Below, piece after piece: positions 3,102 to 20,560 of a stretch of DNA of 64,000 nt (its first letter is position 1; each line of letters starts with the position of its first letter). The notes under the pieces are model-generated. The model ran no database searches. It was given only the letters and a program-made list of their open reading frames with translations, and was not told the DNA's origin. Both the position numbers and the translations under genes were made by a program. Source of the stretch: an uncultured Lachnospiraceae bacterium (GTDB lineage Bacteria > Bacillota > Clostridia > Lachnospirales > Lachnospiraceae); contig CACZBW010000001.1 of NCBI GenBank assembly GCA_902779575.1, positions 141,355 through 205,354 on the forward strand. The letters are read 5' to 3'.

Positions 3102-3144
3102 GTCTTATTCATATAATTCCTCCTGAAATGAAGAGAAACAAGGC

Positions 3145-3762
3145 TCAGAACAGACGGAAGACACCAAACACTTTGCCGAGAATCTCCAGCTGGTCCTCCA
3201 CAATAATCGGATCCATGGAATCATTCTCCGGCTGAAGGCGGACATGGCCTTTCTCCCGGTAAAAGGTCTTGACGGTGGCGGAATCATCAAGAAGCGCAAC
3301 GACGATATCGCCGTTCTCGGCATCTTTCTGCTGCTGCACAAGCACAAGGTCGCCGTCGTTAATCCCGATGTTGATCATGCTGGTTCCCTTGACCCGCAGC
3401 ATGAAAGACTGTCTGTTCGGCATATACTCAGAGGGAATCGGAAAATAGTTCTCTATATTCTCCGCCGCAAGGATCGGCTGACCGGCCGCGACAGTACCGA
3501 TGATCGGCACATTGACCGTCTCCCTGCGGGTGAGATTGAACTGATCGTCCACGATCTCGATCGCGCGCGGTTTTGTGGGATCTCTTCGGATGTAACCGTT
3601 CTTTTCAAGTGTTTCAAGATGAGAGTGGACGGAAGAAGTGGACTTCAGGCTGACAGCCTCACAGATCTCCCTGACGGCAGGCGGATACCCCCTGCTGATG
3701 ATCTCCTGTTTGATGAAATCAAGAATCTCCTGCTGTTTCGGAGTGATCTTTCCGTATGCCAT
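3145..3762 (-). CDS. lexA: LexA repressor
   Basis: LexA is the SOS repressor: it binds operators and cleaves itself when activated RecA is present. The 205-residue protein has the N-terminal winged helix (about 1-70), the Ala93-Gly94 cleavage bond in VAAGQP, and the Ser128/Lys165 dyad in KGTSMI and SATVKTF. Length is normal for the family. A GGGAGG ribosome binding site precedes the ATG. It is divergent from a LysM/YneA-like gene, with several SOS boxes between them, as in Bacillus, which implies autorepression and co-induction. Confidence 0.97.
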
Positions 3763-3785
3763 AAGTCTGCCTCCCTCTCACTGAC

Positions 3786-3806
3786 CGGACAGGACAAAAC
3801 TGTCCG
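3786..3806 (-). other. Hairpin in the lexA leader
   Basis: A perfect 7 bp inverted repeat (3786-3792 and 3800-3806) with a 7 nt loop lies 24 bp upstream of the lexA start codon, inside the predicted leader RNA. It has no T-run, so it is not a standard terminator. Its function is unknown. Confidence 0.4.
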
Positions 3807-3847
3807 CAGGTCCCGGCAACCTGCTGAGATCATTATTATCTGAAGAA

Positions 3848-3876
3848 ATCATATCACAGTTGAAAATGGAATGCAA
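3848..3876 (-). promoter_or_regulatory. Possible lexA promoter
   Basis: On the minus strand TATGAT (3848-3853) lies 17 bp from TTGCAT (3871-3876). The -10 is good and the -35 is poor. An SOS box at 3875-3886 overlaps the -35, which suits LexA autorepression. Confidence 0.4.
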
Positions 3877-3967
3877 ACAAATGTTCCAAAAATCCGTTCG
3901 ATTCTGTTGACAAACATATGTTCTGAACATATAATCGATACAGAACAAATGTTTCGAATACATGTTC
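3875..3967. promoter_or_regulatory. Cluster of LexA (SOS) boxes
   Basis: Four sites match the Gram-positive SOS pattern GAAC-N4-GTTC with at most one changed base: 3875-3886, 3912-3923, 3943-3954 and 3956-3967. A further half site begins at 3925. The second box lies between the -35 and -10 of the divergent gene's promoter, and the first abuts the lexA promoter, so LexA should repress both directions. Confidence 0.85.
3907..3935 (+). promoter_or_regulatory. Promoter of the LysM/YneA-like gene
   Basis: TTGACA at 3907-3912 and TATAAT at 3930-3935 are perfect boxes 17 bp apart. An SOS box fills the spacer, so the promoter should be strong but shut by LexA. Confidence 0.8.
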
Positions 3968-4017
3968 CGGTAAAAGGGAACTCTTTCATGTCTGCAGAAG
4001 AGGGGAGAAGGAACGCA

Positions 4018-4416
4018 ATGACGGAGTATGGTATCAATCTGAAGGAGGATATGATTCTTGAAAACAGACGGTCGCTTGCCAGGGCACTCCGTTCCCGCCA
4101 AAGAAGGATCAGGCAGCTCAGAAGAAGAGGAAGCATTCTTGTTCTCTGCCTTCTGCTTTCTTTTCTTTTTCTGACCGGTTTCCGGCATAAAAGCCCTGTG
4201 ATTCTGCCCGCGGGAGGAGAGATTTATACCCCGGTAAGGGTAGAACGGGGAGACACGCTCTGGGATCTGGCCGGAGTTTATATGCCGGAGCAGGGATATA
4301 AGTCAATCCCTGATTATATCCGCTCTGTCTGCCGGCTGAATGAGATGCATACGGCCAGGATCTATGAAGGCCAGATTCTGTTTTTCCCTGTACGGGACGG
4401 GAACTCTTTCCGATGA
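4018..4416 (+). CDS. LysM-domain cell division inhibitor, YneA-like
   Basis: The protein has a basic N-terminus, one membrane segment (about residues 39-54) and an extracellular LysM domain (about 73-123) starting at VRVERGDTLWDLA. In Bacillus the SOS gene yneA, divergent from lexA, encodes a protein of this layout that delays septation during DNA damage; position and SOS boxes support the same role here. The start is uncertain: ATG 4018 has GGGGAGAAGG six bases upstream and gives 132 residues, while ATG 4051 has AAGGAGG only two bases away. An ATG at 3988 is also possible. Confidence 0.8.
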   Translation: MTEYGINLKEDMILENRRSLARALRSRQRRIRQLRRRGSILVLCLLLSFLFLTGFRHKSPVILPAGGEIYTPVRVERGDTLWDLAGVYMPEQGYKSIPDYIRSVCRLNEMHTARIYEGQILFFPVRDGNSFR

Positions 4417-4474
4417 TCCGCCCGGAATTCATAATTCCATAAGAATTCATTCAGAAAGCGGACCGTGAGATTCA

Positions 4475-4503
4475 TTGTTATTTACGGACGGCGATGCTAT
4501 AAT
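4475..4503 (+). promoter_or_regulatory. Promoter of the DUF1002 gene
   Basis: TTGTTA at 4475-4480 and a perfect TATAAT at 4498-4503 are separated by 17 bp. The start codon at 4612 is about 100 bp downstream, so there is a leader of about 100 nt in which I see no known riboswitch. Confidence 0.6.
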
Positions 4504-4611
4504 AAGATCGGTCCGCTGGGGCGCTGCCAGACCGGCTGCAGAGAAGAACAGATCCGCACAGCCTCCAGGGAAAACGAAAGTATAAACAGGGTTGATAAGG
4601 AGGTTGTCAGC

Positions 4612-6843
4612 ATGAAAAAGAGGTTCATCAGCAGACTGATGGCAGGAGCCGCAGCGCTGGTCCTGTTTGCCGGAATTCCTGCACTTCCGGCGAGGGCGGA
4701 TTCGAGGGTGGTCGCCACGATCGGCGCAGATCTGACGGCGGAGCAGCAGACGGCGATTCTGCAGTATTTCGGCGTATATGGTAATCCTGCCGTACAGATC
4801 ATGTATATCAATAACCAGAATGAGAGAGATCTGCTGGGAAGCTGGGTACCCATCGAACAGATCGGAACGCATACGATCAGCTGCGCGCTGGTGAAGCCTA
4901 CCACATCCGGAGGCATCCAGGTCAGAACAGCGAACCTGAATTATATTACCAGCAACATGATCGCATCGAATCTGGCCACCGCAGGCATTACAAACTGTGA
5001 AGTGGTTGCAGCGGCCCCGTTCGAGGTTTCCGGTACAGGAGCCCTGACCGGTATTCTCATGGCTTACGAGAGGTCCACATCGACCGCTCTGGACCAGAAC
5101 AAGTCCAATGTTGCCGTGCAGGAGCTCGTCACTACGACGGATCTGGCCAACAAAGTCGGCCAGCAGGAGGCGCAGCAGATTGTCAATGATATCAAACTTC
5201 AGATCATTGAGGGCAATCTGGAAGCCACCGACGTGGAGCAGGTAAACCAGATCGTCAATGATGTTATTACGAATTATACGGATGATTCCCTCATCGTTTA
5301 TACGGATAACAGCTCAACCAATAATACAGTTAACAATACGACGAACAACACGGTCAATAATACGACAAACAATACTGTTAACAATAATACTGTCAACAAT
5401 AATACAGTTAACAATACCACAAACAATACGACAACCAACGTATCGAATAATACAACGAACTATACGTCCGGTCTGAGCCAGGAGGATATCGTCCAGCTTC
5501 AGATCTTTGCCGCCAATCTGGCCGCCCAGTCCTATGACGAAGGAACGAAGGCTGCGCTTGCGCAGATCCAGCAGTCTCTTGAGCAGCAGACCCAGAAGAC
5601 CAGCTCGGCTCAGACGCAGGATATCGTAGCTTCTGTCGAATCTGAAGCAGAAGCACGTCAGCCTGTGATGGAGCCGGAGAAGGAAGCCCTGAACAATATC
5701 CTGAACCAGGTGAATCTTGACGCGCTTGCCAATATCCCCGGCATGCAGGGTGTCGTGGAATCCTCCACCGATCAGTCCGTACTGAGTGAGAGCAGCAATA
5801 ATCTGGATGTGCAGATTCAGGAGCAGTATACCGCTCCCGCACAGGAACCGGTTCCGGATTCCGCCCCGGCGCCGAATGTGGATCCGGAATGGCAGGCGCT
5901 GAATGATCAGCTGAATCAGGAAAATCTTGAAATCGCAAGTCATATTCCGGGCATGGAAGGCATCAGTACAGAGCCGCAGCCGGAAGCAGCTCCGACGGAG
6001 CAGACAGACCTTGCGACAGCTAAGACGGCTGAGACGCCGGAAGAGACACCGGCGGAAACACCGGCAGAGATTTCGCTGGATTCTCTGGAAGAGGCACCGT
6101 CCACAGCAGCGGCAGGCAGCATTTTCTTCACAGACGAGCAGAGAGGGACTGAGTTCAAGTTCAAAGTTCTCGGCACAGAAAAGACTACGGACGGAGCGGC
6201 CAGCGGTGTCAGCGCTGTTGTGGTTGAACTTCCCTATAATGATCTCGCTCCTGTATCCGGCACACTTACTGTAACGGATGAGTATGGAAGCCAGCTCGCT
6301 TACCTGGATCTGGCAGCCGCAACCGCCAGCCAGTACAGTACCGTATCGGAGAACGGAAGCATCACTGTTCCGGATGGCTGGAACGGATATACAGCGGTTC
6401 AGATGGTACCTGTCAGCACCAGTACCGGCAGCGCATTCAGCGCCGATCCGTATAACACATACACATACACGCTGACAGATGCAGTCTTTGCCGGCTCTGA
6501 CGGAGCAACATCTGTAACAGTTAACAGCAGCCGTTCCGGCGGATTTGTATCCGATGCGGGTTATACGATCCCGTCACTTGACCTCAACAATATTATGAAG
6601 GGTTCCAGTGTTAGCGGAACAGTAATTTTCCCGTCCGGCGCAGCTTATGCGACTGTTGCGACTGATAATGATAAGATGTACGCGGACTGCAGTTACGCGA
6701 CACCTGATCTGGCAGGAGTCAGCCTGAATTTCGACGGCCGCGGCAAATCAACCCTGACGATTGATTTCTATACAGACGAAGCTTCTCAGCAGGCTGGAGA
6801 GAGCGCCTTGTACGAAGTGGAATATGTTCTGTATATCCAGTAA
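4612..6843 (+). CDS. Secreted DUF1002-domain protein with Asn/Thr-rich linker
   Basis: This 743-residue protein starts with a clear signal peptide (MKKRF, a hydrophobic core, then ALPARA-D near residue 27). Residues ~28-230 resemble the DUF1002 family (Bacillus YpuA), whose function is unknown. A linker of NNT/VNN repeats spans about residues 233-286. Two imperfect 29-residue repeats ending in IPGM-x-G follow at about 353 and 423, then a Pro/Glu/Thr-rich stretch and a C-terminal beta-rich domain (about 505-743). No sortase or choline-binding anchor is visible, so the protein is probably exported and soluble. DUF1002 proteins are normally near 300 residues, so most of this one is an extension. 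The start has AAGGAGG eight bases upstream. Confidence 0.8.
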   Translation: MKKRFISRLMAGAAALVLFAGIPALPARADSRVVATIGADLTAEQQTAILQYFGVYGNPAVQIMYINNQNERDLLGSWVPIEQIGTHTISCALVKPTTSGGIQVRTANLNYITSNMIASNLATAGITNCEVVAAAPFEVSGTGALTGILMAYERSTSTALDQNKSNVAVQELVTTTDLANKVGQQEAQQIVNDIKLQIIEGNLEATDVEQVNQIVNDVITNYTDDSLIVYTDNSSTNNTVNNTTNNTVNNTTNNTVNNNTVNNNTVNNTTNNTTTNVSNNTTNYTSGLSQEDIVQLQIFAANLAAQSYDEGTKAALAQIQQSLEQQTQKTSSAQTQDIVASVESEAEARQPVMEPEKEALNNILNQVNLDALANIPGMQGVVESSTDQSVLSESSNNLDVQIQEQYTAPAQEPVPDSAPAPNVDPEWQALNDQLNQENLEIASHIPGMEGISTEPQPEAAPTEQTDLATAKTAETPEETPAETPAEISLDSLEEAPSTAAAGSIFFTDEQRGTEFKFKVLGTEKTTDGAASGVSAVVVELPYNDLAPVSGTLTVTDEYGSQLAYLDLAAATASQYSTVSENGSITVPDGWNGYTAVQMVPVSTSTGSAFSADPYNTYTYTLTDAVFAGSDGATSVTVNSSRSGGFVSDAGYTIPSLDLNNIMKGSSVSGTVIFPSGAAYATVATDNDKMYADCSYATPDLAGVSLNFDGRGKSTLTIDFYTDEASQQAGESALYEVEYVLYIQ
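5310..5470 (+). repeat. Degenerate repeat coding the Asn/Thr linker
   Basis: A run of 9-15 bp units such as AACAATACG and AATACTGTTAAC encodes NNTV/NNTT blocks within the DUF1002 gene. Synonymous changes between units show that selection keeps the amino acid pattern. The tract could change length by slippage. Confidence 0.8.
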
Positions 6844-6953
6844 GAAGCGGAAGAGAATTCCAGTGTGTTGTTTTCGGCAATCCGCTTCAAAGGTTCTACA
6901 TTAGAGATTTCTGTGACAGAATCCTGAGATAAATGGATTGTTAAAGAGGAAAG

Positions 6954-6998
6954 AAAACCGCAGCAGATCAGAAGATTTCTGCTGCGGTTTTCCTTTTC
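6954..6998 (+). terminator. Terminator of the DUF1002 gene
   Basis: A 14 bp perfect stem (6954-6967 and 6978-6991) with a 10 nt loop runs into a T-rich tail. The A-run on the other arm could also let it work in reverse. Confidence 0.88.
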
Positions 6999-7018
6999 AT
7001 CTGATTTTCAAATCTGAA

Positions 7019-7046
7019 CAGGGGGAATCCCCTGTTTTCTTTTTTC
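7019..7046 (+). terminator. Second terminator in tandem
   Basis: CAGGGG at 7019-7024 pairs with CCCCTG at 7029-7034 across a 4 nt loop and is followed by TTTTCTTTTTT. It lies 28 bp after the first terminator and insulates the ROK gene from upstream read-through. Confidence 0.85.
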
Positions 7047-7076
7047 TGAGGGCAATCATAAGAAGCGTCTCCTTGA

Positions 7077-7105
7077 TTGACAAAGAAGGTTTCAGAGGCT
7101 AAAAT
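7077..7105 (+). promoter_or_regulatory. Promoter of the ROK regulator gene
   Basis: TTGACA at 7077-7082 and TAAAAT at 7100-7105 are 17 bp apart. The region between 7105 and the start codon is AT-rich with loose dyads that may hold an operator, but none is as clear as the one before the xylulokinase gene. Confidence 0.7.
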
Positions 7106-7184
7106 TATTAATTGAAATAAATGATAAATCGAATGTATCTATAATCCGGCAATTGAGACTTCCTGAGACAGATCAGTAGAGGGC

Positions 7185-8423
7185 ATGACGAAGATGGAGA
7201 GAGAAGATCGTTTTCTTGGGTATAATCAGGAAAAGATACAGGGTATGAACAGGACCCTGGTGCTGAATCTTCTTCGGAAAGGAGGAATCTGTTCCCGAAC
7301 TCAGCTTGCGAAAGAATCCGGGCTGAAGCAGGCCACCATAACGAATATTGTCAATGATTTTATAGAATGGGGCATTGTAAAGGAAACAGGTTTTCTTACC
7401 GGAGATAAGGGGCGCAGATCCATCGGTATTTCCATGGATCAGAGTACTTTCGGGATACTGGCGGTACGTCTGGCCAGAAGAGGCTTTTCCATAGGCGTTT
7501 TCGATATGTGCGGGAATCCCGTAAAGATCATACGCCGCTCTGCGGCCCAGAATCAGGATCCTGAGACGGTAATCAGCAGTATCTTTAAAGAAGCCGTGGA
7601 GCTGATGCGGGATAACTCCGAAAGACATTACCTGGCCTGCGGAATCGCTCTTCCCGGTCCATACAGCTTTAAAAGCGGCAGGATTGAGATCATGACAGGG
7701 ACAAAAGGCTGGCATGAGATCGCAATCCGGGAGCGTTTTGAGGAGGCTCTCGATATGCCGGTTTTTGTTGAACAGGATGCCAACGCCGCCGCCTTTGCCC
7801 AATACTGGAAGTTTGAAGAGGAACATCCGGGGGAGATGCTTCTTTATCTTGCCGTTGGTCCCGGAATCGGAGCGGGGATCATTCAGAAGGGGCAGATTCT
7901 TCGCGGAAGGATTGGCGTGGCCGGAGAGATCGGGCACATGTCTGTTAACTACAAAGGACCGAAATGTGTCTGCGGCAACAGAGGCTGTCTGGAGAATTAT
8001 TGTTCCTCGAGAGCATTTGTCGATAAAGTAAACAGAAAGAAGAAAGCGCTCCTGAGTTTTGAAGAAACTGCGATCCTGTTAAAGGAAGGCGATTCGGATA
8101 CAGAAGCATGCTTTTTTGAAATCTGTGATATTCTGGCAATCGCCATCGCAAACCTGATGAACTGCTTTAACCCGTCTGTTATCATTCTTGGCGATGAAAT
8201 GTCTCATATCATACCCGAAAGGATGCTTTCTTATATAAGGGGAAAAGTAAAAGATCTGGTGCTTCCTGCTTTGTATGAAGATACATTGATTTCCACAAGC
8301 CTTCTGCCCATCGATTCTTTTGTCCACGGAGCAGCGGTTGTAGCCTGGAATCAGATTTTCACGAAGCCGGAACTGTATTTCAATAAGTACTCTGAAGATG
8401 AAAAAAAACGATTGACAAGGTAG
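7185..8423 (+). CDS. ROK-family transcriptional repressor (XylR/NagC type)
   Basis: The 412-residue protein joins an N-terminal winged helix (about 22-75, with SRTQLAKESGLKQATITNIV) to a ROK sugar-binding domain. EQDANAAA (196-203), GEIGH (247-251) and the zinc motif CVCGNRGCLE (261-270) are intact. The ATP-binding DxGxT loop expected near residue 95 is missing, so it is a regulator and not a kinase. Its 3' end carries the -35 box of the next gene's promoter, and a large palindrome lies between the two genes, so xylulokinase expression is its likely target. A second ATG at 7194 is a possible start. Confidence 0.9.
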   Translation: MTKMEREDRFLGYNQEKIQGMNRTLVLNLLRKGGICSRTQLAKESGLKQATITNIVNDFIEWGIVKETGFLTGDKGRRSIGISMDQSTFGILAVRLARRGFSIGVFDMCGNPVKIIRRSAAQNQDPETVISSIFKEAVELMRDNSERHYLACGIALPGPYSFKSGRIEIMTGTKGWHEIAIRERFEEALDMPVFVEQDANAAAFAQYWKFEEEHPGEMLLYLAVGPGIGAGIIQKGQILRGRIGVAGEIGHMSVNYKGPKCVCGNRGCLENYCSSRAFVDKVNRKKKALLSFEETAILLKEGDSDTEACFFEICDILAIAIANLMNCFNPSVIILGDEMSHIIPERMLSYIRGKVKDLVLPALYEDTLISTSLLPIDSFVHGAAVVAWNQIFTKPELYFNKYSEDEKKRLTR

Positions 8424-8440
8424 ACTCTCTGCGTTATTAT
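8412..8440 (+). promoter_or_regulatory. Promoter of the xylulokinase operon
   Basis: TTGACA at 8412-8417 lies inside the last codons of the ROK gene, and TATTAT at 8435-8440 follows after 17 bp. The -10 box forms the left end of the palindromic operator, so repressor and polymerase would compete. Confidence 0.75.
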
Positions 8441-8475
8441 TTAATCGGTTTAAGCATTAAACGAATTAAATAATA
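8435..8475. promoter_or_regulatory. Large palindromic operator, probably bound by the ROK repressor
   Basis: Two 19 bp arms (8435-8453 and 8457-8475) are inverted repeats with only two mismatched positions and a 3 bp centre. The arms are AT-rich with a GTTTAA inner end, which resembles the layout of XylR boxes (GTTTAA-type half sites) in Firmicutes. Position over the -10 and start region of the xylulokinase promoter, next to a ROK gene, makes it the obvious operator. Confidence 0.8.
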
Positions 8476-8505
8476 GGCTTTGGATCGCGGGAGGTGATAT
8501 GGAGT

Positions 8506-9990
8506 ATGGGATTTTATGCAGGAATAGACCTCGGGACTTCAAGCACGAAGGTTCTGATCATGGACCGGGTAGGGAATGCTCTCGGGGTCGGGAATGCCTC
8601 CTATGAAGTCCGGATCCCGATGATTTCCCGGGCCGAGCAGGATCCGGAGGAGTGGTGGACAGCTGTGAAAACTGCTCTTGCCGGGGCAGCTGCGGCGGCA
8701 GGAATCCCTGCAAGCGGAATTGATGCGGTAAGCTTCTCCGGCCAGATGCACGGAGTGGTGGCGCTGGACCGGGATAAACAGCCTGTCTGCCCCGCCATTA
8801 TCCATCTGGATCAGCGTTCCGGTCCTCTCCTTAAAGAGATGCGGGAGATTGCCGGATCCCTTATGAAAGAAGAACTTCTCAACCAGCCCGGGGCAGGAAT
8901 GATGATCAGTACTTTGTACTGGATGAAAAAGGAAAGCCCCGTTTTGTTCGACAAGGTACGCTTTGTCCTCTCTCCGAAGGATTATATCCGCTTCCGTCTT
9001 ACCGGAGAAATCGGTACGGAGGTGACTGACGCTGCCGCTTCTCTGGGATTCTCGGTAAAAAACCGCAGCTGGTGTAAGGAACTGTTTCATAGACTCGGGA
9101 TACCGGAGGAAATCTTCCCGCCGGTTCATGAAAGCTGTGAGGTCGCCGGAACCGTAACATCAAAGGCATGTGAGGAGACCGGTCTGGCTCCGGAGGCAAA
9201 AGTCGTTTTCGGCGCGGGGGATTCCCTGGCGGCCATGACGGGGATCGGCGTGATCGGTCCCGGGACCATGGCCTGCAATATAGGTACGGCTTCCCAGCTT
9301 GTAGTGGTGGCGGATCATCCGGTTTTTGACCCTCAGTTCCGGGTTCAGACCTGGTGCCATACGCGCCCCGGATGCTGGGCGATCCAGAGCGGAGCCCTGA
9401 ACGGAGGAAGCACACTCAGCTGGCTGAAAAAACGGATTCTGAAAAGTACGGCTCCTTTTTCTGTACTGGATCAGGAGGCCGGGGAGGTACCCGCCGGTTC
9501 GGAAGGACTTATATTTCTTCCGTATCTCTCCGGAGAGCGTACTCCATGGAATAATCCGTCTGCCAAGGGCGTTTACTTTGGCCTCGGCATGAATCATACA
9601 CAGGCGCATCTCATCAGGGCCACGATGGAGGGCGTTATTTTCAATCTTAGAGAGTGTCTTGGGATCTTTGACGGAATCCATCTGGAGAGAAACAGCCTGC
9701 TTGCCTCCGGAGGAGCAGCTAGAGGAAAAACCTGGAAACAGATTCAGGCGGATATGCTCGATATGCCGGTACGGACTGCGAAGGTGGAAGAGGAAGCCTG
9801 CCAGGGTGCCGCCATACTTGCCATGGTAGGAGCGGGTGTCTTCCCGGATATCCCGGCCGCCTGCAGTCAGATTATCAGGCTCAGCGAAGAAGTTGTGGAA
9901 CCGATTCCGGAAAATGTACGCAGATATAGGGAAAGACAGGCCTTGTTCCATTCTCTGTATGGTCAGGTAGAAGGACTGTTTAAATTATGA
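8506..9990 (+). CDS. xylB: Xylulokinase (FGGY family)
   Basis: This enzyme phosphorylates D-xylulose to xylulose 5-phosphate with ATP, feeding the pentose phosphate pathway. The 494-residue protein has the phosphate loop GIDLGTSSTK (6-15), the xylulokinase-type SGQMHGVVALD (78-88) and the catalytic Asp239 in GAGDS. Another FGGY sugar kinase specificity (for example a related ketose) cannot be excluded. An in-frame GTG at 8494 lies within the ribosome binding site; ATG 8506, seven bases after GGAGGTGAT, is the better start. It opens an operon whose later genes encode sugar-modifying enzymes. Confidence 0.88.
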   Translation: MGFYAGIDLGTSSTKVLIMDRVGNALGVGNASYEVRIPMISRAEQDPEEWWTAVKTALAGAAAAAGIPASGIDAVSFSGQMHGVVALDRDKQPVCPAIIHLDQRSGPLLKEMREIAGSLMKEELLNQPGAGMMISTLYWMKKESPVLFDKVRFVLSPKDYIRFRLTGEIGTEVTDAAASLGFSVKNRSWCKELFHRLGIPEEIFPPVHESCEVAGTVTSKACEETGLAPEAKVVFGAGDSLAAMTGIGVIGPGTMACNIGTASQLVVVADHPVFDPQFRVQTWCHTRPGCWAIQSGALNGGSTLSWLKKRILKSTAPFSVLDQEAGEVPAGSEGLIFLPYLSGERTPWNNPSAKGVYFGLGMNHTQAHLIRATMEGVIFNLRECLGIFDGIHLERNSLLASGGAARGKTWKQIQADMLDMPVRTAKVEEEACQGAAILAMVGAGVFPDIPAACSQIIRLSEEVVEPIPENVRRYRERQALFHSLYGQVEGLFKL

Positions 9991-10039
9991 AACTATGTTT
10001 ACACAGCCGTCAAACGGCAGGGAAAGGAGGAGGAAAAGC

Positions 10040-10423
10040 TTGGACAGCACTCAGAAAACAGGCGGATACATCCTCAGCTGTGAGAATATCTCAAAATCCT
10101 TCGGTGGAACACAGGCACTGAAAGGTGTTGAGCTCGTAGCGATCATCTGCGATAACGATGGTATGTCCGCTGCCGCACAGAAGATGTGCAACGATAACGG
10201 CAGAAACGACGTCATCTGCATCGGCGTTGACGGCGTGGAAGTTCCGCTTCAGATGGTTAAGGACGGCGCTATGAAGGCTACCATCCTGCAGGACGGCGTT
10301 GGCCAGATCAACGGCGCTATTGAGATCGTTGAAGCCATTGTCAAGGGCGAAGAGTTTGATCCGAATCCTGTGATCCCCTTCGTACTTGTAACAGAGGAGA
10401 ATGTCGACGATTATCTTGAATAA
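10040..10423 (+). pseudogene. Chimeric remnant: sugar ABC ATPase N-terminus fused to sugar-binding protein C-terminus
   Basis: The first ~32 residues (from the TTG at 10040, after AAAGGAGGAGG) match the start of RbsA/MglA/XylG-type ATPases: LSCENISKSFGGTQALKGV. The frame then passes without a break into the last ~95 residues of a RbsB-like periplasmic sugar-binding protein, with ICDNDGMSAA, CIGVDGVE and an IVKGEEF tail. No Walker A, signature motif, Walker B, permease or signal peptide remains. An intact operon would need about 3 kb more: the rest of the ATPase, a permease and the front of the binding protein. The join lies near 10130-10145. It may be a real deletion or an assembly error; either way the 127-residue product cannot transport. 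Confidence 0.85.
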
Positions 10424-10456
10424 TGAACTGCTGACATTCAGCTGATCAGCTGATAC

Positions 10457-10490
10457 AGACCCCTGACGCGTAACGTCAGGGGTCTTGCTT
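10457..10490 (+). terminator. Hairpin after the transporter remnant
   Basis: A perfect 12 bp stem (10457-10468 and 10474-10485) with a 5 nt loop is followed only by TGCTT. It is strong as a hairpin but weak as a terminator; in an intact operon it may have reduced read-through into the downstream enzyme genes. Confidence 0.6.
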
Positions 10491-10504
10491 CCTGGAGGAT
10501 AAGG

Positions 10505-11320
10505 ATGTCTCAGATACTGTATGGAAGCCAGACCTACCCCTGGCAGATGCGGGTAGAAAAGTTCGCGGGACAGGTTCCGCATATGGTGGAAGTTTTAAAG
10601 AAAGCCGGATTCACCGGCATGGAAGCCGAGATTGTCATGCTGGGCGATTATTATCATGACTGGGCCAGGTTAAAAGACCTCCTGGACCGGGAGGGCATTG
10701 TCCTTGCCGCCCTGGCAGTTCACGAGAACTGGCTTTTCGAAGAAGAAACAGAAGCGGAGCGCAGGAACCTGGATGAAGCAATTGAGTTTCTGACACATTT
10801 TCCGGCGGCGAAGCTGATGCTGGCCCATGTGGCAGCTGACCCTGTCCGTGAACACAGACTGCAGGAAAAGCAGAAAAACCAGCTTTCCTGCCTGAAGAAT
10901 ATAGCCGAAAGGGCAAAGGAGAGAGGAGTCGTCCCGGTATTTCACCCCAATTCCGGGGAGAATTCCATTTTCAGATATGAAGAAGATTACAAGGTCATGT
11001 TTGAAGGCCTGTATAAAGGCGGCATAGGTTACGCCCCCGATGTGGGACATATGGCCAACGGCGGGATTGATCCCCTTAAGATGATCCGGGAGCACCGGGA
11101 TATCGTCCAGCATGTGCATTTTAAAGACATGGATGCATCCCATGTCTGGGCAACCATGGGGAAGGGAATCATTGATTTCCCGTCGATCGTCCGTTATCTG
11201 GAAGAGACCGGTTACAGAGGCTGGATCATGACGGAAGACGAGTCTCCGGACGCGGTGGAGGATTCGGACGCAGTGGTGCTGGAAGACGGAAGATATATGA
11301 GGATGATTCGCGAAGAATAG
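10505..11320 (+). CDS. Sugar phosphate isomerase/epimerase family protein (xylose isomerase-like TIM barrel)
   Basis: The 271-residue protein has the AP-endonuclease-2/xylose-isomerase-like barrel used by IolE, IolH and various keto-sugar epimerases. Likely metal ligands are seen in FHPNSG (His147), PDVGHMANGG (Asp179, His182), HVHFKD (His205, Asp208) and MTEDES (Glu244). It should isomerise or epimerise a sugar or inositol-type intermediate; the substrate is not clear. A CTGGAGG ribosome binding site precedes the ATG. The Gfo/Idh/MocA gene follows after 31 bp; this pairing is common in polyol and inositol catabolic operons. Confidence 0.82.
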   Translation: MSQILYGSQTYPWQMRVEKFAGQVPHMVEVLKKAGFTGMEAEIVMLGDYYHDWARLKDLLDREGIVLAALAVHENWLFEEETEAERRNLDEAIEFLTHFPAAKLMLAHVAADPVREHRLQEKQKNQLSCLKNIAERAKERGVVPVFHPNSGENSIFRYEEDYKVMFEGLYKGGIGYAPDVGHMANGGIDPLKMIREHRDIVQHVHFKDMDASHVWATMGKGIIDFPSIVRYLEETGYRGWIMTEDESPDAVEDSDAVVLEDGRYMRMIREE

Positions 11321-11351
11321 AACTGTATACATCTGTTCAGGAGGAAGAAGA

Positions 11352-12485
11352 ATGAGCAAACACAGAACAGCGGTCATGGGATTGGGCGTACGCGGAAAAA
11401 CCCACCTGAAGGCGCTTCTTGAGAATGCTGAACATTATGAGATTGTGGGCATCTGCGATATCCGTCCGGAGGTCATGGATGCAGTGGAGGAGATGTTTTC
11501 TCTTTCCGTCCCGAAGTTTACGGATGTGGAAGAGATGCTCAGCCAGACCCGTCCTGAGGTCTTTGTTTTTGTCACCTATCCGGACCTTCGCCTTTCCATG
11601 ATCGAACTGGCTGTCAAGTACGGGGTGAAAGCCGTATCCTTCGAAAAGCCTATGGCAGAGAATATGGAAGAAGCGAAGAAAATGACAGATCTCTGCATCG
11701 CAAACGGCATTAAGGCCGTGGTCTGCCATCAGCAGAAATATCTGAAACAGATGCAGGAGCTTAAGGCAAAAGTGGATCGGGGCGACCTGGGAAAGATCAA
11801 AAAAATCTTTGCGGAATGCCAGCCCTGGATGGCCCAGCTCGGAACGCATTATATGGATTACATCATTTGGGTAAACCAGGGCGCAAGAGCGAAGTCGGTA
11901 ATCGGCCATGTACATGGCCCTGCCACCATGCAGGACGATCATCCGTCGCCCGATTTCCTGTTCGGAGAAATTCTCTTTGAGAACGGGACGAGAGGATATC
12001 TGGAGTGCGGTTATTTCGCGGAGCAGCATAATCCGGATATGTACCGGGATTCCGACAACAGACTGACAGTCTGGGGGGAGGAAGGCTATGCCTACGCGGA
12101 GACTGACGGATATTGGGGAGAGTGCAGCAGGAATACAGGATCCAGGCTGGTAAAAGGAAAGAAACCGGGCTGGTACCATTTCCAGGAAAAGGAGATCCAG
12201 ACCCCTTATTATACCGAGTATGCGGAATGGCTGGATGATGACAAAAAGGTGCATTCCTGCAATATTGAAACGGCCCTCCACGGATATGAGATTCTGGAAG
12301 CCATCGTTCTCTCGGCTCTGGATAACAGGAGAGTGGACCTTCCGCTTACTGATTTTTCCTATGAACCGGTCATGGAACGTATGAAAAAAGAACTTCCGTG
12401 GTTCGAAGGCTGTGACAAGGCCCCCAGGGATCTCTACAAAGGCGACTGGGACCGGCCGGAGAGGGATGATGAGGATGACGAATAA
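11352..12485 (+). CDS. Gfo/Idh/MocA-family oxidoreductase
   Basis: The 377-residue protein has the Rossmann nucleotide site GLGVRGKTH (10-18), the EKP motif (97-99) and the family's GTHYMD motif (163-168), all typical of NAD(P)-dependent sugar or cyclitol dehydrogenases. The C-terminal domain is the usual mixed sheet. The tail after residue 360 is very acidic. The substrate is unknown. GGAGGAAG precedes the start. The next gene begins inside its last codons, which supports translational coupling. Confidence 0.87.
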   Translation: MSKHRTAVMGLGVRGKTHLKALLENAEHYEIVGICDIRPEVMDAVEEMFSLSVPKFTDVEEMLSQTRPEVFVFVTYPDLRLSMIELAVKYGVKAVSFEKPMAENMEEAKKMTDLCIANGIKAVVCHQQKYLKQMQELKAKVDRGDLGKIKKIFAECQPWMAQLGTHYMDYIIWVNQGARAKSVIGHVHGPATMQDDHPSPDFLFGEILFENGTRGYLECGYFAEQHNPDMYRDSDNRLTVWGEEGYAYAETDGYWGECSRNTGSRLVKGKKPGWYHFQEKEIQTPYYTEYAEWLDDDKKVHSCNIETALHGYEILEAIVLSALDNRRVDLPLTDFSYEPVMERMKKELPWFEGCDKAPRDLYKGDWDRPERDDEDDE

Positions 12486-13278
12486 CTGCAAAGCAAACGG
12501 GATTACGATCAGCTATGAGGAAAGCGGACAGGGAGAGCCGCTTCTGCTTCTCATGGGCCTCGGTGCGCCGGGCCGTAAATGGAAACCCCATATGGATCTT
12601 TATGATAAGCATTTCCATGTGATCGCGCCCGATAACCGGGGAGCCGGCTTATCCGACAAACCGGTATCCTATGCCTATTCCATTAAGGATATGGCGGAAG
12701 ACATGATCGGACTGATGGACGCTCTGGGGATTGAGAAAGCGAGCGTAAACGGAATTTCCATGGGCGGCGCCATCGGTCAGTATCTGGCTGTGTATTATCC
12801 GGAGAGAGTGAACAGGCTGATCCTTACAAATACCTTTCCTTACTGCTGCACCAGCAACCGCAGGGCGATTGAGCTCCTCCGGGATACCTGCGGCAGGCTG
12901 GACAGTGTGACAGCCACAAGGCTCTGCCAGTGGATGATCTTTGCGATCCCGTTTCAGAATACCAATGAAACTTATATGCTGGAATGTGAATATGCCGATC
13001 TCCAGGAACCCCATCCGATGCCGGAATATGCGTATCGTGCACAGTGCAACGCGATTCTGGATTTTGATATCCGGGAACGGCTTTCGGATATCAGCGCCCC
13101 GACGCTGGTTGTCGGAGGGGACAGGGATCTGCTGATTCCGGAATGGGTGACACGTGAGATGGCGGAAAAGATTCCCGGTGCCCGTCTCTATATGGCAAGA
13201 GACGGCGGCCATGTCCAGCACTGGGAGCAGCTGGAAGCATATAATAAACTTACCCTTGATTTCCTGTTGGAGAAATGA
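12475..13278 (+). CDS. Alpha/beta-fold hydrolase
   Basis: The 267-residue protein shows a complete hydrolase triad: nucleophile Ser95 in GISMG (93-97), Asp218 in GGDRDLLIP and His246 in DGGHVQHW. The oxyanion region MGLGAPG (27-33) and DNRGAGLS (53-60) are typical of lactonase, esterase or C-C hydrolase relatives such as 3-oxoadipate enol-lactonase. In this operon a sugar lactonase or esterase role is plausible but not shown. Several closely spaced ATGs (12466, 12469, 12475) are possible starts; all overlap the end of the preceding gene, and GGAGAGGG at 12458-12465 serves any of the later ones. Confidence 0.85.
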   Translation: MTNNCKANGITISYEESGQGEPLLLLMGLGAPGRKWKPHMDLYDKHFHVIAPDNRGAGLSDKPVSYAYSIKDMAEDMIGLMDALGIEKASVNGISMGGAIGQYLAVYYPERVNRLILTNTFPYCCTSNRRAIELLRDTCGRLDSVTATRLCQWMIFAIPFQNTNETYMLECEYADLQEPHPMPEYAYRAQCNAILDFDIRERLSDISAPTLVVGGDRDLLIPEWVTREMAEKIPGARLYMARDGGHVQHWEQLEAYNKLTLDFLLEK

Positions 13279-13341
13279 CAGGGAAATGGTATACTGATTT
13301 TACAAAACACCTTTCATCCAGTTTTTCAAAGGAGATTTACC

Positions 13342-14124
13342 GTGAAAGAGAATTATTTAGAAGAGTTATTCTCACTGAAAGGCAAAGTGGCCCTGGTTAC
13401 GGGGGCCGGACGCGGAATCGGACAGGTAATCGCCCGGGATCTGGCAAGGGCCGGCGCGGACATCGCCATTTTCTCCCGTTCAGGGGCAGCGGACACCGTG
13501 AAGCTGATCGAAGAAGAGGGCGGAAAAGCTCTGGATATTATCGCGGACTGCACCAAAGAAGATCAGGTGACGGAAGGATTTAAAAAGATCCTTGAGGTCT
13601 ACGGAAGGATCGACGTAGTGGTCAACAACGCCGGCGTCTGCTATCACAAGGATATCTTTGAGGCAAGTGTCGAGGAGTTCCGCTGGTGCCTCGATATCAA
13701 CCTTACAGGAGAGTATATTGTCGCCCGTGAGGCCGCCCGCATCATGATCGAAAAGAAGATCGCAGGCAGCATCATCAATATCGCTTCCATGTCCGGTTAT
13801 ATCGCCAACGTGCCGCAGAGGCAGGTAGCTTATAATGCTTCCAAGGCCGGCGTCATCCACATGACAAAGAGCCTTGCTGTAGAACTTGTGGATTATAATA
13901 TCCGCGTCAATTCCATCAGCCCGGGATATGTCGCCACGCCGATGTCTGTCGATCCCGATTTTGTGGAGCCTGAGCTTCTGGCCGCCTGGGAGCCTCTGTT
14001 CCCGATGCATCGCATGGCGAAGCCCGAGGAGCTCACCGGAGCGATCATCTGGCTTGCTTCCGATGCTTCCCATTATGCCAACGGAACGGATATTCTGATC
14101 GACGGATTATATACCGCTGTATAA
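13342..14124 (+). CDS. Short-chain dehydrogenase/reductase
   Basis: This is a 260-residue classical SDR: TGAGRGIG (20-27) for NAD(P), NNAG (95-98), and the catalytic Ser149/Tyr164/Lys168 set in IASMSG and YNASK. The ASMSG-to-SPGY region resembles sugar-alcohol dehydrogenases of the sorbose/mannitol/arabinitol type. In an operon with xylulokinase it could oxidise a pentitol to a ketose, but this is inference. The start is GTG with AAAGGAG ten bases upstream. It ends the operon, 122 bp before a terminator. Confidence 0.87.
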   Translation: MKENYLEELFSLKGKVALVTGAGRGIGQVIARDLARAGADIAIFSRSGAADTVKLIEEEGGKALDIIADCTKEDQVTEGFKKILEVYGRIDVVVNNAGVCYHKDIFEASVEEFRWCLDINLTGEYIVAREAARIMIEKKIAGSIINIASMSGYIANVPQRQVAYNASKAGVIHMTKSLAVELVDYNIRVNSISPGYVATPMSVDPDFVEPELLAAWEPLFPMHRMAKPEELTGAIIWLASDASHYANGTDILIDGLYTAV

Positions 14125-14245
14125 TAAAATTCACGAAGTATAAACAATTTCAAAACTCCGGTGGACGCTGCGGGCGTACTGTAGAAATCTGACAGGAAAA
14201 GCAGCCTTGCGCCCGGGCAGATTCCGTCAGGGCGGAATGGATATA

Positions 14246-14276
14246 AGCAGGCTCATTGAGAGCCTGCTTATTTTTC
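14246..14276 (+). terminator. Terminator of the sugar operon
   Basis: A perfect 9 bp stem (14246-14254 and 14260-14268) with a 5 nt loop is followed by TATTTTTC. Confidence 0.88.
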
Positions 14277-14331
14277 AGGATTTCCGAACCATATTCTTTA
14301 TAAGATTATGTCTGTCCGTACATTTCTTTTC

Positions 14332-14360
14332 TTGACAAAACAGGGGAACAGAAGTAAGAT
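14332..14360 (+). promoter_or_regulatory. Promoter of the tyrosine recombinase gene
   Basis: TTGACA at 14332-14337 and TAAGAT at 14355-14360 are 17 bp apart. The start codon is about 190 bp downstream, giving an unusually long leader. Confidence 0.6.
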
Positions 14361-14430
14361 CTCCATATAGATCTATACAGAAAACACATGTTTTTCAAAT
14401 AGATCAGGCAGGATTTACGGGAAAACCGGC

Positions 14431-14508
14431 CCTGGATTCTGTTTTTAGGGGAAACAGATTTCAGGATTCTTTCGGTAATCGGTTTACAGAGGTGTTAAGC
14501 TGATTACT
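14431..14508 (+). other. Structured leader with two consecutive hairpins
   Basis: The first stem pairs 14431-14444 with 14452-14465 (12 of 14 positions). The second pairs about 14474-14486 with 14496-14508, allowing G-U pairs. Neither has a T-run, so they are not ordinary terminators. They fill the middle of the 190 nt leader before the recombinase. They may be a regulatory RNA element or recombinase binding dyads in DNA; I recognise no known riboswitch. The rest of the 14125-14553 gap holds only the terminator and promoter listed. Confidence 0.5.
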
Positions 14509-14553
14509 GATTTATCATTCGGGGAAACAAAGAAATTAGATAAGGGGATTTTT

Positions 14554-15636
14554 ATGGACACCAACCGCAGCTATCACGAAGAAAAAGATATTCAGAATAC
14601 ACTGCAGCTCCGTGCGCTGCTGACTACATTTCCGCCGTTCGCCAAGTACTATTTCCGTGCTGTGGAGCCGACGACATCCACCAGGACGCGTCTGTCCTAT
14701 GCCTATGATATCCGGACCTTTTTCCGCTTTCTGCAGGAATCCAATCCGGTACTCCGCAGCCGTGATCTGATTAGCTGGGACGTATCAGTCCTTGACCAGA
14801 TCCAGGCTGTCGATATCGAGGAATATCAGGAATTTCTCAAGGTCTATGACGTGAATGAAACGCTTGCCGGGGCTCCGAAGGAAGCCAGATTTACCAACGG
14901 GGAAAAAGGCCTGAAAAGAAAAATGTCGGCTCTGCGGAGCTTCTACGCCTATTATTATAAGAGACAGATGATACAGACAAACCCCACGCTTCTTGTGGAT
15001 ATGCCCAAGCTGCATGACAAGGCCATTGTCCGCCTTGATGAAGGGGAAACGGCTTCTCTGCTCGATTATATCGAGCACGGCGGGGATGATCTGACCGGAC
15101 AGGCGAAACGATATTATGAGAAGACAAAAACCAGGGATCTGGCGATCGTGACTCTGCTTCTCGGAACCGGAATCCGTGTCAGCGAATGCGTCGGCCTTGA
15201 TATCGGCGACGTAGATTTCAGAAATGACGGTATACGTATAATACGCAAAGGCGGTTCCGAATCGATCATCTACTTCGGCGAGGAAGTGGAACGCGCACTG
15301 AAGGCATGGATCGAGGAAAGAAAATCGATCCTGCCCGTCAGCGGACATGAGCAGGCTCTCTTCTATTCTACTCAGAAAAAGAGAATGGGTGTGCAGGCGG
15401 TCGAGAATATGGTGAAGAAGTATGCGAGGGAAGTAACTACGACTAAGAAGATTACCCCGCACAAGCTGAGAAGTACTTACGGAACCTCCCTCTACAGAGA
15501 GACAGGCGATATCTATCTGGTCGCGGATGTGCTAGGCCATAAAGATGTGAATACAACGAAGAAGCATTATGCGGCCATGGACGACAACCGCCGGCGCAGG
15601 GCCGCAGGCGCCGTCCGGCTCCGCGAGACACCATGA
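14554..15636 (+). CDS. Tyrosine recombinase, XerC/D-like
   Basis: The 360-residue protein has an N-terminal SAM-like core-binding domain (about 20-145) and a C-terminal catalytic domain with all active residues: Arg208 (GTGIRVSE), Lys232 (RKGGSE), His303/Arg306 (HKLRST), His329 (LGHK) and nucleophile Tyr339 (HYAAM). It cuts and rejoins DNA through a phosphotyrosine link. It is longer than XerC/XerD (about 300) because of the N-terminal ~20 residues and inserts near 100-120 and 170-195. No phage genes, direct repeats or att sites are seen near it, so a Xer-like housekeeping role is more likely than a prophage integrase. AAGGGG precedes the ATG. Confidence 0.87.
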   Translation: MDTNRSYHEEKDIQNTLQLRALLTTFPPFAKYYFRAVEPTTSTRTRLSYAYDIRTFFRFLQESNPVLRSRDLISWDVSVLDQIQAVDIEEYQEFLKVYDVNETLAGAPKEARFTNGEKGLKRKMSALRSFYAYYYKRQMIQTNPTLLVDMPKLHDKAIVRLDEGETASLLDYIEHGGDDLTGQAKRYYEKTKTRDLAIVTLLLGTGIRVSECVGLDIGDVDFRNDGIRIIRKGGSESIIYFGEEVERALKAWIEERKSILPVSGHEQALFYSTQKKRMGVQAVENMVKKYAREVTTTKKITPHKLRSTYGTSLYRETGDIYLVADVLGHKDVNTTKKHYAAMDDNRRRRAAGAVRLRETP

Positions 15637-15753
15637 CAATAGATCCACAGACTCTGTATTTATGAAAGCGGACTGCTCCGGCTTCCGGCAGGCTGCCCGG
15701 ACCGGACTTCATCTGTATCGGAGAACATGTTCAGCGCCCTCAGTTTCTGCGGT

Positions 15754-16224
15754 TCAGCTTTCTTTTCTTTTCCCGGCAGGAAGAATGCTCTCGTCGAGCA
15801 TGATCGTAAAAGGACCGTCATTTACCAGGCTGACTTTCATCTCAGCCCCGAATTCCCCGGTCTGCACGACGGGAACCGTCTCTCTGCACCGGGCAATAAT
15901 ATACTCGTACAGTTTTTTCGCATGCTCCGGACTTCCCGCTTCCGAGAATCCGGGGCGGTTTCCTTTTTTGCAGCTGGCATAGAGGGTAAACTGCGATACC
16001 AGAAGGAGCCCGCCGTTTACATCCTGAAGGGAAAGATTGGTTTTTCCGGCTTCATCCTCAAATATTCTAAGGCCAAGCATCTTCCGGATATACAGATCCG
16101 CCGTCTCTTCCGTGTCGGAATCGCACACGCCGATCAGGACCAGATATCCTTTTCCGATCGAACCGATCACATTATCATCGACGGTTACCTGTGCCTGAGC
16201 TGTTCTCTGAATCAGAAATCTCAT
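15754..16224 (-). CDS. dtd: D-aminoacyl-tRNA deacylase
   Basis: DTD removes D-amino acids wrongly attached to tRNA. The 156-residue protein has the two defining motifs, [17 protein letters not shown] and a GPFT element (near residue 137), plus [13 protein letters not shown] before it. Length matches the family with a short basic tail. It is the last gene of the minus-strand run that includes rluD-like, lspA and aroB, and it converges with the recombinase gene. I see no clear terminator in the 117 bp between them. Confidence 0.95.
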
Positions 16225-16286
16225 TTTTCCTACCTTTTTTCTCTCTGCCGTCCTGCTGATTATTTATAAAATTTCTGCAGGCCTTA

Positions 16287-17360
16287 CTATCTGTTCTGCG
16301 CCCTCAGTTTCCGCAGAAGATCCTCAAAATATTCCGGCAGAGGGGCTGTAAATTCCATATACGCAGCTGTGGAGGGATGCCGGAATCCGAGAATCATGGC
16401 GTGCAGGGTCTGGCCTTCCAGACGGAAGGGACATTTCTCCGGTCCATAGACTCTGTCGCCCAGCAGCGGATGACCGATCGATGCCATATGTACGCGGATC
16501 TGGTGGGTGCGGCCGGTTTCGAGACGGCATTCCACATAGGTATATGCGCCGAATCTTTCCAGTACCTGATAATGTGTGACAGCCGGTCTGCCGTTTCTCT
16601 GATTGACAGCCATCTTTTTCCTGTCGGCCGGATGACGGCCGATCGGGGCGTCCACTGTGCCGCTGTCTTCGCGGAGATTTCCCAGTACGATCGCCCTGTA
16701 TCTGCGGTTGATCGAATGCTCTTTGAGCTGCTGAGACAGATCTTTGTGCGCCCTGTCATTTTTACAGACAAGCAGGGAACCTGTTGTATCCCTGTCAATT
16801 CTGTGGACGATACCGGGGCGCAGAACGCCGTTTATCCCGGAAAGCTGATCCCTGCAGTGATACATCAGGGCATTCACAAGCGTGTGGCTGTAATGTCCGG
16901 GAGCGGGATGCACGACCATGCCTTTCGGTTTGTTTACAACCAGAACGTCCGCATCCTCGTACAGAATGTCGAGCGGAATATCCTCCGCTTCAATATGGAT
17001 CTCTTCCGGCTCGGGGACCGTAACAGAGAGGATTTCTCCGGATTTCATCTTTCTGCCGGCTTTCGCCAGGACAACTCCCTGCGCCGGATCTGTTTCTTCA
17101 GTCGGAAGAAGCTTTACGTTACCCGCCGTGATCTGCTTCTGGAGGAAGCTTCTTGACAGTTCCGGGATGAGTTCGGACAGGCAGGCGTCAAGCCGCTTTC
17201 CGTCCATCTCATCGGGCAGGACCAGGCTGAAACAGCCCGGCAGCTGCAGATCATCCTCATCCGGTTCAAAGCCGGCAGCTTCTGAAACATTCTCAGTTTC
17301 CGGAAGATTCCGCTTCTCTTCAGGGGGCATCTCATGACCGTTTCTGACGCAGGAATTCAT
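16287..17360 (-). CDS. RluD-family 23S rRNA pseudouridine synthase
   Basis: The 357-residue protein has an N-terminal acidic extension (~45 residues), an S4 RNA-binding domain, and the RluA/RluD catalytic domain with the HRIDRDTTG motif carrying the catalytic Asp. TGRTHQIRVHM and GHPLLGDRVYG are also intact. It converts uridines to pseudouridine, most likely in 23S rRNA. The start overlaps the end of lspA: ATG 17360 has AAGGATGAGG upstream, and ATG 17369 or 17330 are alternatives. Overlap with lspA indicates one transcript, as in many Firmicutes (lspA-rluD). Confidence 0.9.
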   Translation of the reverse strand: MNSCVRNGHEMPPEEKRNLPETENVSEAAGFEPDEDDLQLPGCFSLVLPDEMDGKRLDACLSELIPELSRSFLQKQITAGNVKLLPTEETDPAQGVVLAKAGRKMKSGEILSVTVPEPEEIHIEAEDIPLDILYEDADVLVVNKPKGMVVHPAPGHYSHTLVNALMYHCRDQLSGINGVLRPGIVHRIDRDTTGSLLVCKNDRAHKDLSQQLKEHSINRRYRAIVLGNLREDSGTVDAPIGRHPADRKKMAVNQRNGRPAVTHYQVLERFGAYTYVECRLETGRTHQIRVHMASIGHPLLGDRVYGPEKCPFRLEGQTLHAMILGFRHPSTAAYMEFTAPLPEYFEDLLRKLRAQNR

Positions 17361-17847
17361 AATCCTCATCCTTATAGTAAAAGAAAACCAGATACAGGAT
17401 CCCGGCCATGCTGCAGCAGACGCAGATATCCGCGAAATTGAAGACCGGAAAGTCGATCAGGGAAAAATAGATGAAATCTGTCACATATCCGGAAAAAGCC
17501 CTGTCGATCAGGTTTCCCGCAGCCCCGCTGATCAGAAAGACCAGGCAGGCTCTCATGGGAAAGAAGGAGGTTTCCGGCAGAATCCGGAAATAGAAAAAGC
17601 CGGCCGCGGCGATAAAACAGGCTGCAAGAAGCAGAAAAACCCACTGGCGGTTCTGGAGAATGCCAAAGGCCGCGCCCCTGTTTTCCAGATAGTGAAGCTG
17701 CAGGACTCTGTCGATCAGGATGATATCCGGAGCGTTCTTTAAATGAGTGCGTGCCAGCTGCTTCGTCAGCTGGTCAAAGCCTGTCAGGAGCAGAATCCCG
17801 GCAGCGGCACAGGCAATCCGCCTCCCCCGATTTGTATGTCTAGTCAT
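17332..17847 (-). CDS. lspA: Lipoprotein signal peptidase (signal peptidase II)
   Basis: LspA is a membrane aspartyl protease that removes signal peptides from prolipoproteins. The 171-residue form chosen has four hydrophobic segments and the catalytic Asp115 (GAAGNLIDR) and Asp140 (FPVFNFAD). The NRGAAFGI motif is at 56-63. The frame is open further upstream, but ATG 17847 gives normal length; ATG 17868 would add seven residues. No strong ribosome binding site is seen. The next gene overlaps its last 29 bases. Confidence 0.93.
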   Translation of the reverse strand: MTRHTNRGRRIACAAAGILLLTGFDQLTKQLARTHLKNAPDIILIDRVLQLHYLENRGAAFGILQNRQWVFLLLAACFIAAAGFFYFRILPETSFFPMRACLVFLISGAAGNLIDRAFSGYVTDFIYFSLIDFPVFNFADICVCCSMAGILYLVFFYYKDEDYEFLRQKRS

Positions 17848-17899
17848 ATATATTCCGATATCCGGCATCAGAACAGGAGTCCGATCCGGATGCGCGGAC

Positions 17900-19015
17900 T
17901 TAATCCGCTTTGATGAATCTGAGGGCTTCCGTAATCTCCTGATCGCTGACTGTTTCATCGATATAGGCGCTGCCAAGCTTCTTCAGAAGAATAAAGCGGA
18001 TATTCCCTTTATCCATTTTTTTATCATGCTTTGCGGCTGCGAGAATGTCCTCCGGTTCAAGGCTGTCAAAGGAGATGGGAAGGCCGAAGCCGACGAACAT
18101 GTCCCGGATCTCATAGAAGGTATCTTCATCGATCAGTTCTCTTTTCCGGGAAATATATGCAGCGACTACGCTCCCGAGGGCAACACATTCCCCGTGGGCA
18201 AGCTCAAACTTCTTCAGTTTTTCAATCGCGTGCCCGGCCGTGTGTCCGAAATTGAGCACAGCCCGCTCTCCCTTTTCCTGTGGATCCCGCTCAACGACCC
18301 TTCTTTTGATATGAACGCTTCCGATAACCATCTCCCTGAGAACTTCCGGATCCCTTTCCCCGATCTCTCCCATATGATCCAGGCACCATTCATAGTAAGA
18401 AGCGTCCCTGATCAGTCCATGCTTCAGGACCTCCCCCATGCCGCTTGCAAACTGCCTGTCGTCGAGCGTCTTTAGCGTCCCTATATTGATATAGACGAGG
18501 GAGGGCTGGTGAAAAGCTCCGACCATATTCTTGTACTGATCAAAGTCGACGCCGGTTTTTCCTCCGATCGAGGAATCCACCTGAGAAAGCAGCGTCGTCG
18601 GGACCTGAATAAAACGGATCCCTCTGAGATATGTGGCGGCTGCAAAGCCGGTCATATCGCCGATTACGCCTCCTCCGAGAGCGACGAGCAGATCGTTCCG
18701 GTCCAGTCCCTGTTCAATCAGATGAATGTAAAGCTTCCGGATCTCATCCAGATTCTTGTGTTCTTCCCCTGCAGGGATTACATAGGAAGACAGCTGTCTG
18801 CAGGCAGGCGTGAGCTTCTCTTTCAGCTCATCCAGGTAAAGAGGCGCCACATTGCTGTCGCTGACGATGACCATCCGGCGGTCCTTTATATCCAGTTCCT
18901 CCAGACGTTCGGGGAGGGCGTCAAAAGAAAGCTCCGGGTAAATGTGATAGGCAAAACGGCGGTCTTTTTTCACTGTGATAAAATCGTTTTCCTGCTGTTT
19001 CCGGACATCCGACAT
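17900..19015 (-). CDS. aroB: 3-dehydroquinate synthase
   Basis: AroB converts DAHP to 3-dehydroquinate, the second step of the shikimate pathway, using NAD and a divalent metal. The 371-residue protein has the glycine-rich GGGVIGDMTGFAAATYLRG-type motif near 115-135 and the metal ligands in the FGHTAGHAIE region. The preceding sequence GGKTGVDF is also typical. Length is normal. It is the only shikimate gene in the window and lies between the ylmH gene and lspA. Confidence 0.96.
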   Translation of the reverse strand: MSDVRKQQENDFITVKKDRRFAYHIYPELSFDALPERLEELDIKDRRMVIVSDSNVAPLYLDELKEKLTPACRQLSSYVIPAGEEHKNLDEIRKLYIHLIEQGLDRNDLLVALGGGVIGDMTGFAAATYLRGIRFIQVPTTLLSQVDSSIGGKTGVDFDQYKNMVGAFHQPSLVYINIGTLKTLDDRQFASGMGEVLKHGLIRDASYYEWCLDHMGEIGERDPEVLREMVIGSVHIKRRVVERDPQEKGERAVLNFGHTAGHAIEKLKKFELAHGECVALGSVVAAYISRKRELIDEDTFYEIRDMFVGFGLPISFDSLEPEDILAAAKHDKKMDKGNIRFILLKKLGSAYIDETVSDQEITEALRFIKAD

Positions 19016-19077
19016 AATTTCATTTCCTTCCTGATTTCGTTAAAATCTGATTGCCATGATGCTTAAGACGGCAGGGT

Positions 19078-19833: not shown

Positions 19834-19852
19834 CATGACAGAGAAATCCAAA

Positions 19853-20434: not shown

Positions 20435-20560
20435 GGAACACTGCTTCTCCTGTTTTTTTGCCCGGGCACAGTCAACCGGGCTTCCCCTGATGATCAGCCC
20501 CGACAAAAGGCAGTCCGCCGGACTGCTCTGCTCCCTGTCAGGGTCTCCCCTCTTACCGCG

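Follow-up and report, generated by a model that had tools for sequence, protein, structure and literature searches.

A 64,000-nucleotide stretch of DNA from an uncultured Lachnospiraceae bacterium (hereafter the window) carries a catabolic operon in which one short frame starts as an RbsA-like ABC transporter ATPase and ends as an RbsB-like sugar-binding protein (Table 1), raising the question of whether this frame is a working gene, what a deletion has left of an importer or a product of the assembly. The frame is open throughout, with its TTG start at 10040 preceded by GGAAAGGAGGAGG. In a mechanical list of open reading frames the same frame was begun instead at an ATG at 9995 to give 142 amino acids, but 10040 is the better start because it is conserved, together with its ribosome-binding site, in the intact ATPase gene of L023 (Blautia sp. 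MAG RGIG5147), the closest homologue of the operon. When compared with that locus, residues 1-32 of the fusion are 84% identical to the start of the ATPase and residues 18-126 are 84% identical to the end of the binding protein. The chimera that had been proposed in the original prediction is borne out by this comparison, which places the crossover at V30/E31 (10129/10130), one to two codons ahead of the suggested switch at about residue 32, and counts 97 retained C-terminal residues of the binding protein where about 95 had been estimated.

Table 1. Features of the operon, the fusion frame and its junction, in window coordinates
Feature	Position	Strand	Details
Segment extra relative to G001 (L108)	6859-14322		7464 bp, edges approximate; flanked by blastn blocks
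ROK-family regulator	7185-8423	+	Pfam ROK, 7e-50
FGGY kinase, xylulokinase-like	8494-9990	+	TIGR01312 XylB, 418.9 bits (cut-off 380.25)
Fusion frame	10040-10423	+	127 codons, open from TTG start to TAA stop
ATPase-gene remnant, RbsA-like	10040-10129	+	Start codon and residues 1-30; TTG and ribosome-binding site as in L023
Deletion junction	10129-10136	+	3297 bp of L023 absent; blastn blocks overlap at 10129-10135
Binding-protein-gene remnant, RbsB-like	10130-10423	+	Last 97 residues and stop; Peripla_BP_4; 89% nucleotide identity to L023
Xylose-isomerase-like TIM-barrel enzyme	10505-11320	+	PF01261; 91% amino acid identity to L023
GFO/IDH/MocA oxidoreductase	11352-12485	+	PF01408; 97% amino acid identity to L023
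Alpha/beta hydrolase	12412-13278	+	PF00561; 92% amino acid identity to L023; frame as listed overlaps previous gene
Short-chain dehydrogenase (final operon gene)	13342-14124	+	Pfam; 98% amino acid identity to L023

The sole Pfam match of the fusion was to Peripla_BP_4, in which profile positions 183-258 of 258 aligned at residues 31-105 with 42.1 bits (Pfam cut-off 35.1), and no Pfam match to an ABC ATPase was found at E-values up to 1. Both nucleotide-binding domains of a CUT2 ATPase are absent, the Peripla_BP_4-type domain is not present as a whole and, as judged from N-terminus identity alone, the frame is without the secretion signal of the binding protein, its N-terminus being that of the ATPase. 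The fusion may be expressed as a protein, although most likely an inert one, since it has no nucleotide-binding motifs, no membrane part and no secretion signal and comprises just a portion of one binding-protein lobe. The PDB contains shortened ribose-binding-protein chains (7pu4_B, 188 residues; 7qsp_A, 151 residues) that likewise contain an RbsB-like C-terminal part, but these start to match the L023 protein at residues 157 and 174, compared to 228 for the window fragment, which unlike them carries 30 foreign residues. That such a fragment passes the Pfam cut-off for a sugar-binding protein though no transporter gene remains at the locus is a caution for annotation.

L023 has intact ATPase, permease and binding-protein genes between flanks that match the window, these being the kinase end with intergenic DNA upstream and the isomerase gene downstream. 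By blastn, window 9903-10135 matched L023 4520-4748 and window 10129-10424 matched L023 8039-8334, with 3297 bp between the two blocks extra in L023, equal to 1099 codons and divisible by three. The window thus resembles the intact CUT2 importer genes of L023 (of the RbsA/RbsC/RbsB kind) in the start region of the ATPase and the end of the binding protein, and differs from them in being without ATPase residues 31-505, the 325-residue permease and binding-protein residues 1-227, in agreement with the predicted loss of motor motifs, permease and signal peptide amounting to some 3 kb. The intact L023 ATPase aligned almost end to end with the RbsA model, at a score below that model's cut-off. With the extent of the deletion defined against L023, a single recent event of about 3.3 kb would have taken the bulk of the ATPase gene, the entire permease gene and binding-protein codons 1-227.

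A scan of genome contigs for relatives of the fusion found eight loci, three of which overlap with the genomes of the other search set (L024 is G018, L026 is G011 and L028 is G005), and gene maps of homologous loci were drawn from matches of at least 35% identity (at least 30% for the window). Permease and binding protein are present and unfused in all eight, and the ATPase is full or nearly full in six, with L026 and L027 beginning inside the ATPase gene. Conservation of the same 127-residue protein in relatives would have pointed to a true gene, but the fusion was found neither in these eight loci nor in 97 other genomes searched, such that a conserved real gene is not supported; with the source genome included, 49 of 98 genomes gave some match, and only in the source genome did a match span query residues 1-127. 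A short RbsB-like frame of 125 residues close to a contig end in G056 (L096 1547-1924) is only 34% identical and represents a different case, with a nearby frame that looks like a transposase.

The binding-protein remnant (92 codons) has a dN/dS of 0.077 compared to L023 and of 0.075-0.14 compared to seven further homologues (L024-L030), the corresponding range for the intact L023 binding protein and the same seven being 0.09-0.165; for L033, which is more distant, they are 0.27 (window remnant) and 0.33 (L023). Reading of the listed codons assigned at most five nonsynonymous changes in the remnant to the window's branch, and a crude Poisson estimate of neutrality gave P = 0.003 over 30% of that branch and P = 0.07 over 20%. 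The dN/dS of the binding-protein part does not support prolonged neutral decay after the split from L023; being still low, it indicates that either the deletion is young or the assembly is at fault. The ATPase part has a dN/dS of 0.64 on 10 changes in 31 codons, one of which is not ATPase, which is too little to read; it does not fit well with the same undisturbed history as the binding-protein part. The dS of the remnant to L023 is 0.46, compared with about 1.0 for the four enzymes, a difference that is unexplained, and the enzymes have open frames and dN/dS values of 0.013-0.05. A working small protein kept by selection, such as a cytosolic sugar-responsive fragment, would be in keeping with the open frame, the native start and ribosome-binding site and the low dN/dS of the remnant. 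However, selection before the deletion would itself leave a low ratio, the fusion is missing from the genomes and loci searched and its AlphaFold model is of low confidence (mean pLDDT 65.8, pTM 0.54), making a selected function very improbable.

At the join the window reads GTT GAG CTC GTA, and the two blocks matched to L023 overlap there by 7 bp. On the ATPase side 10 of the 11 homologues listed have Val-Gln-Leu with CAG, L037 has Glu as GAA and GAG, the junction codon of the window, occurs in none, while on the binding-protein side Asp-Glu-Leu-Val is found in six of the 11 listed and Asp-Asp-Leu or Glu-Glu-Leu in the other five. As such, 7 bp of shared sequence would require GAG in the lost ATPase, and the true overlap may be just 1 bp. 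By the letters of L023 the two sides agree exactly over 1 bp at the breakpoint and over a further 4 bp past a mismatch, giving a run of 1, or of 4 if the breakpoint is moved one base past the mismatch; when 200,000 endpoint pairs were drawn at random from L023, 1.9% had exact runs of at least 4 bp, and the breakpoint homology is therefore unremarkable. Long homology at the join is not supported, with 7 bp at most common to both sides, and a short-homology mechanism is not demonstrated by the letters at the join. Deletions between short or imperfect repeats, arising by illegitimate recombination, are a textbook class, which the present case resembles in being a single continuous loss whose ends share little homology and from which it departs in the size of that homology (at most 7 bp, possibly 1 bp). 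The crossover keeps the frame because the phases of both sides agree; the ends would have met at similar Gln-Leu and Glu-Leu codons, which would explain why the frame is open.

The original prediction had offered a recent deletion or an assembly collapse. Under the latter, the organism or most of its population would keep the importer, with the assembly having dropped 3.3 kb or taken a minority variant. The source genome is indeed a draft of 3.55 Mb in 75 contigs, 95.3% complete with 4.23% contamination, and no decay is seen in the binding-protein remnant, both of which would suit such an artefact. However, 7 bp or less is below the usual k-mers of assemblers, the join lies about 54 kb from the nearest end of a 205-kb contig and a DNA search of the source assembly found no copy of the missing stretch, so that an artefact is rather unlikely. 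The short shared sequence and the position well inside the contig favour deletion over collapse without settling the choice. We consider it likely that the importer of an acquired operon was recently lost through a deletion of about 3.3 kb, leaving a fusion that is probably inert.

The search for a second copy of the missing stretch covered an assembly that is 95.3% complete, such that its negative outcome is not absolute; the longest DNA match was 215 bp at 70% identity, with short ones of up to 85% over 52 bp. At the protein level, the check that had been suggested for the missing ATPase and permease elsewhere in the genome returned paralogues only, the best-scoring ATPase being 48% and the best-scoring permease 37% identical with non-self binding proteins at most 31% identical, and removal of the missing genes to another place in the genome is not supported at orthologue level. 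The genome does encode 13 other RbsA-like ATPases, which aligned over at least 467 residues with 34-48% identity; the top two by score, whose importers are candidate replacements, lie at C26:14603-16075 and C1:17806-19242. The absence of an importer from the operon is as such not the same as the absence of import, and another CUT2 importer of the genome may feed the intact enzymes.

As had been predicted, the operon retains enzymes and a regulator, here of the ROK family, with no transporter gene left at the locus. The four downstream enzymes recur in L023 in identical order, and the blastn match to L023 stops at the stop codon of the short-chain dehydrogenase gene. Among solved structures the L023 binding protein is closest to the CUT2 proteins 4rs3, 5hko and 4rsm, which we take to be polyol binders. 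No RNA families were found in 6800-14600 at Rfam gathering scores.

The kinase is absent from the L023 locus, the best kinase match in that genome being 32% identical. Upstream of the intact importer, L023 4520-4610 holds a remnant of the 3' end of an FGGY kinase, seen as a 161-nt match of 79% identity with indels that takes in the last 88 nt of the kinase; the kinase may have been lost from L023, or the operon copy there may start at the kinase end. By comparison of the two loci the gaps are complementary, with the importer missing in the window and the kinase in L023. It might be proposed that the fusion is kept as a small cytosolic sugar-responsive factor such that sensing replaces import and the operon is fed by another importer or, in a milder version, that complementary gaps in two lineages sharing one mobile operon are an adaptation and not decay, but we regard this as highly improbable.

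Lateral acquisition is the simplest account of how the operon came to be here, as judged from sequence comparison. The nearest of 20 other genomes compared, by its Xer-type recombinase (96% identical; Pfam Phage_integrase), is G001, in which contig L108 matched window 3137-6858 and 14323-14404, the two blocks standing 113 bp apart there. The enzyme stretch of the operon had no match in G001, which is 83% complete. In L109, L110, L112 and L113 a relative of the window's DUF1002 protein was close to the recombinase gene and no operon genes were found in the interval, and in L111 a partial relative was about 10 kb from the recombinase gene, likewise with no operon gene found. The enzymes are far closer to L023 than are their neighbours, since six neighbouring proteins of 14554-20506 are 38-64% identical to proteins of the L023 genome (stretch L094) and a seventh protein compared has no protein match in that stretch. 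Because the operon is absent at this place in G001 and its enzymes are 91-98% identical to those of L023, compared to 38-64% for the neighbours, it was probably laterally acquired. New here are the absence of the operon-bearing segment from the closest relative identified and the probable lateral origin of the operon. An operon of ROK regulator, FGGY kinase, CUT2 ABC importer and four enzymes would have entered the lineage and come to lie between the DUF1002 gene and the Xer-type recombinase gene before its importer was deleted. As a variant compatible with the core of this explanation, the deletion could have occurred before or during transfer, in keeping with the probable lateral origin of the operon, but the low dN/dS of the binding-protein part points to a young deletion in whichever cell it occurred, and none of the eight homologous loci is deleted, which leaves this variant improbable. 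The event looks like ordinary recent gene loss and changes no general idea, while illustrating clearly how an apparently acquired catabolic operon can lose its importer through one in-frame deletion.

No marks of the insertion mechanism were found, there being no exact direct repeats of at least 10 bp between 6801-7185 and 14101-14450. Carriage by a plasmid found no support: 89 plasmid records gave matches to the four-enzyme stretch, none of them covering 80% of it, and the five records shown each cover about 5% at the short-chain dehydrogenase gene. In G005 three of the operon enzymes are at one place with the fourth beside importer genes at another. The 14323-14404 stretch is non-coding, had no Rfam match at gathering scores and lies upstream of the Xer-type recombinase gene, with conservation over 56-83 bp in five of the six same-genus loci compared. 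On the other side of the operon, the DUF1002 protein (4465-6843) has a long Asn-Thr-Val-rich stretch and is variable in relatives, with 33-79% identity over matched parts.
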